In this document: positions 19,649-22,778 of the stretch, one piece after another
How positions within the stretch are numbered: position 1 is the stretch's first letter
How the letters are laid out: every line of letters begins with the position of its first letter
Source: an uncultured Roseibacillus sp.
GTDB lineage: Bacteria > Verrucomicrobiota > Verrucomicrobiia > Verrucomicrobiales > Akkermansiaceae
Reading direction: 5' to 3'
Assembly: GCA_937949965.1 (NCBI GenBank)
Contig: CALFBF010000099.1
Coordinates: 1 to 51,290, forward strand
DNA: 51,290 nt
Notes under the pieces: model-generated
Told to the model about the DNA's origin: nothing
The model's input: only the letters and a program-made list of their open reading frames with translations
Database searches by the model: none
Translations under genes and position numbers: made by a program

Positions 19649-19883
19649 CCCAACAAGCTAACGAGGAAGCCCTGAACCTGCAACCCAGAGGAAAACTCCT
19701 CCTCACCACAAACTTTAATGACGCGAGAGATGGAAGGATGAGAATGAGGCTCACTCCCGTAGGCTGCAGATGAACATTTATTAGAGATTTAGATTTTTCA
19801 GCTTCTTTTAATAATCTTGGGACTGAAAACACTTGCCTTCCCCACCTCAAAAGAACATTGTTCATAAAAGCAATACTTCCACT

Positions 19884-21197
19884 GTGACCTTTCAAAGAAA
19901 ACTCTCCATCCTTGCCGATGCTGCTAAATATGATGCCTCTTGTGCAAGCAGTGGCACTGATAAACGCGACTCCTCAGGGAAGAACTCCTCTGCCCTCGGC
20001 TCTTCTGGTGGCGCAGGGATCTGCCACAGCTATGCCCCCGATGGGCGTTGTATCTCACTGCTCAAGATTCTCCTCACCAATGCCTGCATCTACGATTGTC
20101 ACTACTGTATCAACAGACGTTCGAGCGATACCCCTCGCGCACGTTTCACCGCGCAGGAGGTCGTTCAACTGACCCTCGATTTTTACAAACGGAACTACAT
20201 CGAGGGGCTCTTCCTCAGCTCTGGTATCATCCGCAATCCGGACTACACGATGGAGCAAGTTGTCGAGATTGCCCGCGCCTTGCGAGAGGATCACCACTTC
20301 CGTGGTTACATTCATCTCAAAACCATCCCCGAGGCCTCACAAGAACTCATCGAGCAAGCAGGTCGCTATGCCGATCGCATTAGCATCAACATCGAACTCC
20401 CCACCCAAAAGGGCCTCGAAACCCTCGCTCCCGAGAAAAATCTACGTCGTACACGGCAAGCCATGGGTGGCATTCGGCTTCGAATTGAAGAGAATAAAGA
20501 AGCGCGCAAAGACAAGCTCATCTCTGCAGCTAACAAACCAAAAGCCTTCTCCCCCGCTGGTCAGTCCACTCAAATGATCATCGGAGCCGACGAGGCAAAT
20601 GATCACGAAATTCTGCATCGCAGCAACGACCTTTATAGTAGTTACCGTTTACGCCGAGTCTACTACTCCGCCTACAGTCCGATCCCAGATTCTTCGCCCA
20701 TTCTCCCTGCCAAGTCCCCTCCCCTCATTCGTGAACATCGTCTCTATCAAGCCGATTGGCTCCTTCGCTTCTACGGCTACAGCGTGGGAGAGATTGCTAA
20801 TGAAGACAACCCGCACCTCGACTTGGACCTCGATCCCAAGCTCTCGTGGGCTCTGCGTAATCGGTCTCTCTTCCCAGTAGACGTTAACCGAGCACCCAAA
20901 GATGATCTCCTACGCATTCCTGGTATCGGAGTCCGTTCGGTAAGCCGTATCCTCTCCAGTCGTCGTCACCACCCCCTGCGTCTCCACGATTTGCAGACCT
21001 TAGGCATCTCTCTCAAAAAAAGCCGCCCTTTCCTAACCACTCTCGACTATCACCCTGCGCCCAGTCTGTTAGAAGGCGATCGGCTTCGTCAATTCTTCCT
21101 CCCTCCTCCCGATCAACTGGAACTAAATTTCAGCAAAAAGGTCGCTCCACAAACAAATCAAAGAATCGCCCTCAGCGCGGCTACCGGAGAATTCTGA
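19884..21197 (+). CDS. Radical SAM protein with C-terminal helix-hairpin-helix, UDG-linked family
   Basis: This is a radical-SAM enzyme of the family usually annotated as a putative DNA modification/repair protein linked to uracil-DNA glycosylase. The [4Fe-4S] motif C-x3-C-x2-C is at C68, C72 and C75 (numbered from the GTG at 19884), in NACIYDCHYCINRR. The N-terminal ILADAAKYDASCASSGT segment is typical of the family. The C-terminal third has a helix-hairpin-helix (LLRIPGIGVRSVSRIL), pointing to nucleic-acid binding. The frame is open from a TTG at 19833; I prefer the GTG because relatives begin just before the ILADAAKYD segment. The partner gene starts 12 bp after the stop. The chemistry it performs is unknown. 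Confidence 0.88.
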   Translation: MTFQRKLSILADAAKYDASCASSGTDKRDSSGKNSSALGSSGGAGICHSYAPDGRCISLLKILLTNACIYDCHYCINRRSSDTPRARFTAQEVVQLTLDFYKRNYIEGLFLSSGIIRNPDYTMEQVVEIARALREDHHFRGYIHLKTIPEASQELIEQAGRYADRISINIELPTQKGLETLAPEKNLRRTRQAMGGIRLRIEENKEARKDKLISAANKPKAFSPAGQSTQMIIGADEANDHEILHRSNDLYSSYRLRRVYYSAYSPIPDSSPILPAKSPPLIREHRLYQADWLLRFYGYSVGEIANEDNPHLDLDLDPKLSWALRNRSLFPVDVNRAPKDDLLRIPGIGVRSVSRILSSRRHHPLRLHDLQTLGISLKKSRPFLTTLDYHPAPSLLEGDRLRQFFLPPPDQLELNFSKKVAPQTNQRIALSAATGEF

Positions 21198-21209
21198 GCT
21201 TCTCAAACA

Positions 21210-22778
21210 ATGAAGTCCATCACGATCCGACCGACCCTTGCTTCCTGGCGCAAGGAGTCGCGTGGACTTTTGCAACAAGGCGTTGCTCCCGAGTATATCT
21301 TCTTTGATGACGGCACCCAGACCCGTTCTTTGTTTAGCGAAGAACAGCTTCTAACAGAAGACTATCCGACTCCGCATAAAGTAAAAAACGCAACTTCGAT
21401 CCGTATGCCGAAGTCCTTTCTTGGGCTCGCGGAATTGGTCGCCTGCAACCGCGAGAATGAGCGATGGCGACTTCTCTACGAAGCCATCTACCGTCTCAAC
21501 AACGGGGAAAAATCTCTCCTTAGTATCTCCACCGAGCCACTGGTGCGACGTCTCCAATCGTTAGCAAAAGAAGTCACTCGCGATCGGCACAAGATGAAAG
21601 CCTTTGTCCGTTTTCGCAAAGCGGGTGAAGATTCTCACTCTGGGCGCGAGCAATTCGTAGCTTGGTTTGAGCCCACACACTCCATTGTAGAACTCACCGC
21701 CCCTTTCTTCGCAAAGCGTTTTGCCTCCTTCGACTGGTCCATTCTCACCCCTGAGCGATGCGCTCATTGGGATGGAGATGAAATCACTTTCACCGAAGGA
21801 GTGGATTCTTCGCAAGCTCCCAAAGACGACGAACTGGAGGACTACTGGCGGACCTACTACGCCAGTATCTTCAATCCAGCCCGACTCAAGCTCAAGGCGA
21901 TGCAATCTGAAATGCCCAAGAAGTATTGGAAGAACCTCCCCGAAGCTCCTCTCATCGCAGAGCTAACCGCACGCTCTTCTCTACAAACAGAACAGATGAT
22001 TGAGCAGGGTCCTAACCGCGAACGCGAACACGTCTCTGCGAAAGTTCCTCTCGGAGCTCAGCATCCAGACACCGATCAAGCCGGGCTTTCTCCTCAAGAA
22101 GCGCTCGCTCGCATCGAAGAGCTTTCGTTCCGTCAGATTGATGAAGCTGCAGTCGCCTGCCGACATTGCCCCCTCTATGAAGAAGCGACTCAAACAGTTT
22201 TTGGTGAAGGTCCTCCTCATGCACGCCTTATGATCATTGGCGAGCAACCCGGTGACCAAGAGGACATCGCTGGACGACCCTTCGTCGGGCCTGCCGGTCA
22301 ACTCCTCGACCGCGCTCTCGCTCAGGCAGGTCTCGTGAGAGAAGAAATCTACCTCACAAATGTGGTGAAGCACTTTAAGTTCAAAACGCAAGAACGCAGC
22401 CGTCTCCACCAACGTGCCCATGCCGCAGAAATTCATCACTGCAAGCCGTGGGTCCTAGCCGAGATACTCAAAGTGCGTCCCGAAATCATAATCACCCTAG
22501 GGACTACTGCGGCACAGGCCCTCATTGATCCTAATTTCCAAATCTTAAGAGAACGTGGTCTCCAAGTAACAGAGCTTGCTCACCTTGCCCCGCGCGTTAT
22601 CGCCACCGTTCATCCCAGCTTTCTTCTGCGTCAGAAGGAATCTCGAAAGGCCGCGCAAGAGTTCTCTCTCTTCGTCAACGATCTCCAACTAGCGGCAATA
22701 TCCGATCCCTCAAAGCGACTCTCGCCATCGCCACGACAAACCGAATATCATCGCGATTCCTTTAAAAATGGGCGGTAA
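21210..22778 (+). CDS. DUF4130-UdgX fusion, uracil-DNA crosslinking glycosylase-fold protein
   Basis: Residues 1 to about 250 correspond to the DUF4130 domain that accompanies the radical-SAM family. Residues about 300-510 are a UdgX-type uracil-DNA glycosylase fold. Visible UdgX features are Fe-S cysteines C317, C320 and C411, the GEQPGDQEDIAGRPFVGPAG motif at 344-363, the histidine H400 in the RSRLH loop, and the HPS motif at 468-470. In mycobacterial UdgX the equivalent histidine, in a KRRIH loop, forms a covalent bond to the abasic site after uracil removal. Here the loop reads RSRLH, so the His is kept but the basic residues differ. It is expressed with the upstream radical-SAM gene, which suggests one DNA-processing pathway. 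Confidence 0.9.
   Translation: MKSITIRPTLASWRKESRGLLQQGVAPEYIFFDDGTQTRSLFSEEQLLTEDYPTPHKVKNATSIRMPKSFLGLAELVACNRENERWRLLYEAIYRLNNGEKSLLSISTEPLVRRLQSLAKEVTRDRHKMKAFVRFRKAGEDSHSGREQFVAWFEPTHSIVELTAPFFAKRFASFDWSILTPERCAHWDGDEITFTEGVDSSQAPKDDELEDYWRTYYASIFNPARLKLKAMQSEMPKKYWKNLPEAPLIAELTARSSLQTEQMIEQGPNREREHVSAKVPLGAQHPDTDQAGLSPQEALARIEELSFRQIDEAAVACRHCPLYEEATQTVFGEGPPHARLMIIGEQPGDQEDIAGRPFVGPAGQLLDRALAQAGLVREEIYLTNVVKHFKFKTQERSRLHQRAHAAEIHHCKPWVLAEILKVRPEIIITLGTTAAQALIDPNFQILRERGLQVTELAHLAPRVIATVHPSFLLRQKESRKAAQEFSLFVNDLQLAAISDPSKRLSPSPRQTEYHRDSFKNGR

Follow-up and report, generated by a model that had tools for sequence, protein, structure and literature searches.

A strictly paired radical-SAM and DUF4130 core with an optional UdgX domain in an uncultured Roseibacillus sp.

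We describe a two-gene locus in 51,290 nucleotides of DNA from an uncultured Roseibacillus sp. (assembly GCA_937949965.1, contig CALFBF010000099.1), a stretch that is called the window throughout. The first gene encodes a radical S-adenosylmethionine (radical-SAM) protein with a helix-hairpin-helix (HhH) tail, and the second a fusion of a DUF4130 domain with UdgX, a uracil-DNA glycosylase (UDG) family protein known to crosslink to uracil-containing DNA. In the genomes searched, the radical-SAM protein and DUF4130 are a strictly paired two-part core, and UdgX is an optional, movable attachment. With moderate confidence we interpret the locus as an SOS-type DNA-repair module, in which the radical-SAM/HhH-DUF4130 core is obligate and UdgX serves as an optional uracil-directed covalent tether. 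The two genes, identified from open reading frames (ORFs) and profile matches, are the following.

19884-21197, plus strand: radical-SAM/HhH protein, TIGR03916 (rSAM_link_UDG)
21210-22778, plus strand: DUF4130-UdgX fusion, 522 amino acids

The radical-SAM gene starts with GTG and encodes 437 amino acids, the fusion gene starts with ATG, and the gap between them is 12 bases. A longer radical-SAM frame, from a TTG at 19833, is also found in the ORF list, and homologues start at about the equivalent of 19884. The NCBI profile scores (cut-offs in brackets) are 582.6 bits for TIGR03916 (343.5), 254.9 bits for TIGR03914 (189.95) and 216.6 bits for TIGR03915 (112.25), and in Pfam the scores are 138.7 bits for DUF4130 (cut-off 27) and 123.2 bits for UDG. 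These family matches are far above chance for both proteins, and the locus is a well-formed example of three families already known, each with an NCBI model. ORFs, motifs and profile scores confirm the 12-bp spacing, the CxxxCxxC radical-SAM protein and the fusion proposed in the initial annotation, which was also right that the co-occurrence of the families is recognised. The host genome measures 2.73 Mb, and Roseibacillus persicicus (G001) belongs to the same genus.

Distribution of the radical-SAM protein, DUF4130 and UdgX

Two overlapping draws of genomes were searched, one of 58 relatives and one of 288 genomes from the phylum. The 28 relatives with TIGR03916 over its cut-off are exactly the 28 with a DUF4130 match. 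In the phylum draw, both families exceed their cut-offs in the same 31 genomes and neither does in the other 257, which contain, below cut-off, one DUF4130 fragment (G090, 34.8 bits) and weaker radical-SAM relatives in 48 genomes. Caulobacter vibrioides, included as a control genome, has both core families (TIGR03916 and TIGR03915) over their cut-offs. As judged from matches spanning both domains, a fused UdgX occurs in 11 of the 28 relatives and 7 of the 31 phylum genomes that have the pair, leaving 17 and 24, respectively, with the pair and no fused UdgX. Stand-alone UdgX genes occur in at least five genomes with no radical-SAM match at E 1e-20 (G066, G074, G153, G196 and G220), and G021 has a stand-alone second copy. 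Most relatives with the pair carry no fused UdgX, and for this reason we consider it probable that the core works without uracil crosslinking and that the pair acts whether or not UdgX is there.

Trees of the radical-SAM protein and of the UdgX domain were both built by a quick method. On the radical-SAM tree of 54 class-1 sequences (34 fused, 20 unfused), the fusion state changes six times, at least three of these changes being forced by starred branches, and G031, which is without UdgX, adjoins the genus of the window. On the tree of UdgX domains (39 fused, 11 stand-alone and 4 family-4 sequences), fused and stand-alone domains are intermixed, with six changes of label, two of them forced. 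No column in the radical-SAM or DUF4130 alignment separates fused from unfused members at more than 85% on each side. The idea in the initial annotation of a single product made by an obligate trio finds no support in these results, UdgX being optional and the other two strictly paired.

The same evidence bears on a cycle of crosslink and release, in which the radical-SAM protein would reverse or process the UdgX-His-AP-DNA crosslink (AP, apurinic/apyrimidinic) and all three proteins would serve one reaction. Such a cycle would fit the adjacency of the genes, 12 bp apart, and the fusion of UdgX to the obligate partner of the radical-SAM protein, and a covalent adduct would require some resolving step. 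Yet the pair persists without fused UdgX in 17 of the 28 relatives and 24 of the 31 phylum genomes that hold it, stand-alone UdgX occurs in the five or more genomes without a radical-SAM match, and no radical-SAM column tracks the presence of UdgX, so that we regard this cycle as very unlikely. Reversal of the UdgX adduct by the radical-SAM protein is therefore a candidate disfavoured both by distribution and by the lack of co-varying columns.

Two observations on gene position weigh against so close a pairing of the core. The radical-SAM and DUF4130 genes are on separate contigs in G015, G042, G049, G177, G204 and G306, and they are 5.7 kb apart in R. persicicus. In the latter (L155, 4444-9230), four antisense ORFs lie between the radical-SAM gene and the DUF4130-UdgX gene; named by eye, they resemble hydroxyproline catabolism genes (amino-acid oxidase, aldehyde dehydrogenase, proline-racemase-like and DHDPS-like). 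Despite these intervening ORFs, R. persicicus and the window share the same gene downstream of the fusion. Clustering of neighbouring ORFs at 80 loci gave two plus-strand clusters (62 and 60 loci), which we take to be the pair, and no further cluster in more than 17 of the 80 loci, a weak negative for a wider conserved operon since long ORFs were greedily chosen in GC-rich DNA. Two clusters of 17 loci are on the minus strand and were taken for antisense frames.

A PADLOC search of the locus for anti-phage defence gave no match, and PHROGs gave one weak match per protein (E 0.00043 and 1.8e-5). The radical-SAM protein was matched in 10 phage records and 158 plasmid records. One record labelled Acinetobacter phage (L159, CAKLQH020000003.1) carries the radical-SAM gene and, under the name 'probable DNA metabolism protein', what is presumably DUF4130, together with glyS, glyQ and a gene named aidB, and looks bacterial rather than phage; a second phage record examined has no annotation. 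In a viral fold library, the best 50 rows comprise UDG-type and polymerase matches alongside unnamed or low-quality ones. Plasmid-borne stand-alone UdgX genes (L189, L190, L192 and L193) have among their neighbours genes for CBS-domain, DUF2934 and DUF3175 proteins, trehalose/glycogen genes and one for a sigma-70 family factor, a setting unlike the SOS-type setting of fused UdgX.

Residues and folds of the two proteins

The features of the two proteins on which the comparison rests are listed below.

19941-20051, plus strand: N-terminal cysteines C20 (19941), C47 (20022) and C56 (20049), candidate auxiliary Fe-S ligands, from the alignment
20085-20108, plus strand: radical-SAM motif C68-x3-C72-x2-C75, reading CIYDCHYC, invariant in aligned members
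20877-20972, plus strand: helix-hairpin-helix motif, residues 332-363, from the HHH_3 profile
21228-21947, plus strand: DUF4130 / TIGR03915 domain, residues 7-246 of the fusion, from a profile match
22128-22697, plus strand: UdgX domain, about residues 307-496, from phmmer and Foldseek
22239-22253, plus strand: motif A, GEQPG (344-348), followed by D349 and D352, in 81/81 fusions
22395-22409, plus strand: R-loop RSRLH (396-400), aligned to KRRIH of Mycobacterium smegmatis (Msm) UdgX, with R398 equal to Msm R107 and H400 to Msm H109
22611-22631, plus strand: motif B, HPSFLLR (468-474), with H468 in 80/81 (one masked) and R474 in 81/81

In the radical-SAM protein, C20, C47 and C56 are invariant in all 57 aligned members and also in the 54 class-1 sequences, fused and unfused alike. 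They are perhaps ligands of an auxiliary Fe-S cluster, a possibility weakened by the predicted model, in which residues 20-48 have a predicted local distance difference test score (pLDDT) below 50. The HhH tail of the initial annotation holds up at family level: HHH_3 is faint in the protein of the window alone (E 0.0066, 17 bits, under the Pfam cut-off of 27), yet 56 of the 57 aligned members match it at E up to 1, and in PDB profile searches the region weakly matches a ComEA-related protein (E 0.021) and RuvA.

A comparison with weaker relatives, here called class 2, suggests a role for two of the cysteines. Class-2 proteins occur in 48 of the 288 phylum genomes, where they score 245-306 bits, below cut-off, and none of these genomes has a DUF4130 that passes its cut-off. 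All seven examined (L143-L148 and L156) share with the protein of the window C20, the CxxxCxxC radical-SAM core and an HhH-like region; unlike it, they have C22, lack C47 and C56 and are without DUF4130. As C47 and C56 follow the presence of DUF4130, the alignments suggest an auxiliary cluster or a partner-dependent site. In G148 a family-4 UDG adjoins the class-2 gene; in about 26 other genomes for which a UDG position is listed, the UDG was not adjacent to it, as judged by eye.

The nearest folds of the radical-SAM model are HydE, HydG, PFL-AE and lipoyl synthase (Foldseek, best 50 rows), which bears on an older proposal that the core is an SplB-like photolyase for thymine photoproducts, as suggested in 2013 for DUF4130-associated radical-SAM proteins. 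Excerpts of PMC3765255 term the partner SplB-like and suggest thymine modification, and the combination of a radical-SAM protein with a DNA-binding motif would suit such an enzyme; going by that paper, SplB has radical SAM and a DNA-repair context in common with the locus. However, spore photoproduct lyase is absent from the 50 Foldseek rows, from the 20 PDB matches and from the 25 of 44 family models listed for the 57 members. This counts weakly against a photolyase, which we nevertheless consider quite unlikely.

In the DUF4130 domain, twelve residues are the same in all 53 sequences compared, fused or not (H127, R134, F135, E154, R170, W213, R225, M235, P236, Y239, W240 and E245). No match to it was found in the best 50 rows of each Foldseek list, which used full-length models, nor a PDB relative by sequence, and given this its role would be compatible with an enzyme or an adaptor alike, a point that tempers our reading of the core. 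Compared with DUF4130 (TIGR03915, PF13566) in general, the domain of the window has a full-length match and keeps the invariant residues, with a C-terminal UdgX as in 80 GTDB loci, and is otherwise unremarkable. The radical-SAM protein likewise has a full-length match to TIGR03916, pairs with DUF4130 and shows no notable difference from its family.

The UdgX domain matches UdgX of M. smegmatis with a phmmer E of 1.7e-51. The best 30 Foldseek matches of the fusion model are all UdgX entries, among them 6iod (M. smegmatis UdgX with single-stranded DNA; TMt 0.87, root mean square deviation 1.5 A), and the model is confident around the R-loop (pLDDT 93-95, residues 391-410). Published mutants assign UdgX function to D56, D59, F65, N91, K94, R107, H109 and H178 in excerpts of PMC10776899, and R107 with H109 is used as a UdgX signature in those of PMC10359453; an excerpt of PMC13212565, which uses TIGR03914, adds nothing on the locus. 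The equivalents of these residues and of R184 are all present in the window, as D349, D352, F358, N384, K387, R398, H400, H468 and R474. Three candidate [4Fe-4S] ligands, C317, C320 and C411, are invariant in 62 rows, and H388 is nearly invariant.

We aligned the fusion of the window with the best 80 of 584 matching GTDB loci, giving 81 fusions. Of the 80 loci, 10 are verrucomicrobial and nearly all others come from Alphaproteobacteria, which makes this a sample and not the family as a whole. GEQPG, D349, D352, F358, R398, H400 and R474 are invariant in all 81, so that two statements of the initial annotation, that H400 is kept and that motif A is intact at 344-348, stand. Position 396 is K in 71, R in 5 and another residue in 5; position 397 is R in 70, K in 3, T in 2, F in 2, S in 1 and A in 1, with others; and position 399 is I in 41 and L in 36. 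Within the genus the loops read RSRLH (window), RRLH (G001), KRRLH (G002) and GRRLH (G003), and further relatives have KIRLH, KQRLH, KERLH, RRRKH and KRRLH. R and H are retained in all 11 of the unfused UdgX domains examined, including that of M. smegmatis. Because R398 and H400 are invariant and the positions around them drift, even inside the genus, the loop is not special: from the alignment, RSRLH is ordinary family variation and the UdgX is standard. The replacement of KRRIH by RSRLH is thus a real difference, as first noted, and an unremarkable one, the changed positions varying across the family; far from being lineage-wide, RSRLH is not even genus-wide.

Two points weigh against calling the loop ordinary and would favour a functional variant with altered crosslinking. 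S at 397 occurs in the window only, among the 81 fusions, and the terminal UdgX branch of the window exceeds that of G001 in length (0.28 vs 0.17), the radical-SAM branches being equal (0.074 and 0.077). Such a variant is highly improbable in our judgement, given that position 397 is also K, T, F or A and, in the same family, I, Q or E, that R398 and H400 are invariant and that amino-acid changes are few against many silent ones. Against R. persicicus, the proportions of nonsynonymous (pN) and synonymous (pS) differences are 0.092 and 0.808 for the radical-SAM protein, 0.218 and 0.689 for DUF4130 and 0.184 and 0.802 for UdgX, reported instead of a ratio since synonymous sites are saturated for the radical-SAM protein, the linker and UdgX. 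In this comparison all three are under purifying selection.

Promoters and SOS regulation

We take COG4277 to be the same family as TIGR03916. Evidence on regulation comes from boxes of the LexA type, for which we scanned the 200 bp upstream of the radical-SAM start plus 10 bp, and the promoter in the window has one candidate.

19853-19863, no strand assigned: GAACATTGTTC, a perfect palindrome of 11 bp, 20 bp upstream of the GTG and resembling a LexA box (GAAC-N3-GTTC), read in the sequence

GTTC-N7-GTTC, on either strand, is found in 66 of 67 promoters of the loci L013-L082, nearly all of them alphaproteobacterial (3 of 70 were dropped for a partial match or too little upstream DNA), compared with 32 of 7789 control windows, which overlap one another and come from the same loci. 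Among verrucomicrobial promoters, 12 of 35 (1 of 36 chosen was dropped) have GTTC-N4-GAAC or GAAC-N3-GTTC, against 9 of 2000 controls, and the boxes are found at loci with a fused UdgX (6 of 15) as well as at unfused ones (6 of 20). In five genomes (G000-G003 and G031), GTTC-N4-GAAC is present in every lexA promoter, with another GTTC three or four bases on. It also occurs at the weaker-scoring Y-family polymerase gene in all five loci (no more than 60 bp from the match in G000 and G002, and 0.9-1.3 kb upstream in G001, G003 and G031), at recA in two of five and at the best-scoring Y-family gene in none of five. The lexA promoters (L163-L167) and the radical-SAM promoter of G031 (L114) have in common three half-sites, GTTC-N4-GAAC-N3/4-GTTC, which may represent an extended operator.

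Several points weigh against SOS control in the window itself. The palindrome fits TGTTC-N4-GAACA only with two mismatches, and the promoter of the window has no exact box; such two-mismatch sites number 20 in the window, against 24.2 expected by chance. GAAC-N3-GTTC, which has two sites in the 51-kb window, was added after the window and lexA promoters had been viewed, and without it the verrucomicrobial count is 11 of 35, with no match in the window. The promoters are related, so that these counts are not independent. A search of the window's own genome for TGTTC-N4-GAAC returned 8 forward and 7 reverse sites, including those of lexA and one polymerase, and no genome-wide enrichment over a reversed-pattern control (9 and 16). 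The palindrome as a LexA box is suggestive only.

LexA-type boxes in the promoters of the family are nonetheless in line with the SOS regulation reported for it. Excerpts of PMC8565304 place the COG1573-COG4277 operon within predicted SOS networks of Bacteroidetes, and mention reported SOS regulation of this UDG system in Verrucomicrobia and Alphaproteobacteria. They also regard COG1573-COG4277 as a putative system for base excision repair, connected with misincorporation by the SOS polymerases, which view, together with the SOS-type promoters, argues for a plain uracil base-excision module, where UdgX/DUF4130 would recognise deoxyuridine (dU) left by error-prone synthesis and the radical-SAM protein would repair the site. 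We hold this to be unlikely: it leaves unexplained why the pair persists without fused UdgX, and the genome holds a second UDG-family gene. The product of that gene (L002, G000:C75:4881-5504) has GDTPG in place of the family-4 GE(A/G)PG and no R-loop.

Proposed working of the module

In the SOS-type repair module that we favour, DNA damage would relieve LexA repression, a step that box statistics suggest at family level and only tentatively in the genome of the window, and that is reported for the phylum. By analogy with M. smegmatis UdgX, the UdgX domain would bind dU in DNA, excise the uracil and join H400 to C1' of the AP site; R398 with D349 and D352, all present, would hold the loop. The covalently held DUF4130 and the HhH-bearing radical-SAM protein may then act on DNA close by. 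At C68-C72-C75, the [4Fe-4S]/SAM cluster would make the 5'-deoxyadenosyl radical, helped by C20, C47 and C56, perhaps through an auxiliary cluster.

The UdgX domain shares with M. smegmatis UdgX (TIGR03914; PDB 6ail, 6iod) the GEQPG motif, the equivalents of the functional residues and the fold, and differs in being fused to DUF4130 beside a radical-SAM gene and in its loop, which is two residues shorter. No tested function for the radical-SAM-DUF4130 pair was found among the matches listed in the literature searched, outside which most subscription journals lie; in this respect the initial annotation, which called the chemistry of the radical-SAM partner undescribed, was correct. A more far-reaching proposal, speculative and more doubtful than probable, is that TIGR03916-DUF4130 constitutes an unrecognised class of radical-SAM DNA-repair enzymes apart from spore photoproduct lyase. 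DUF4130 would be its essential subunit, the N-terminal cysteines (C20/C47/C56 with DUF4130, C20/C22 without) would set the chemistry, and UdgX would have been joined repeatedly as a self-crosslinking tag that parks the radical enzyme at uracil-DNA.

What is useful to know about this family is that its SOS-type radical-SAM-DUF4130 core is strictly paired, with UdgX a movable attachment to it. Since the pair can do without UdgX, which has been gained or lost repeatedly, it merits study on its own first, for which Caulobacter vibrioides offers a tractable laboratory organism with both core families; UdgX is plausibly a tether.

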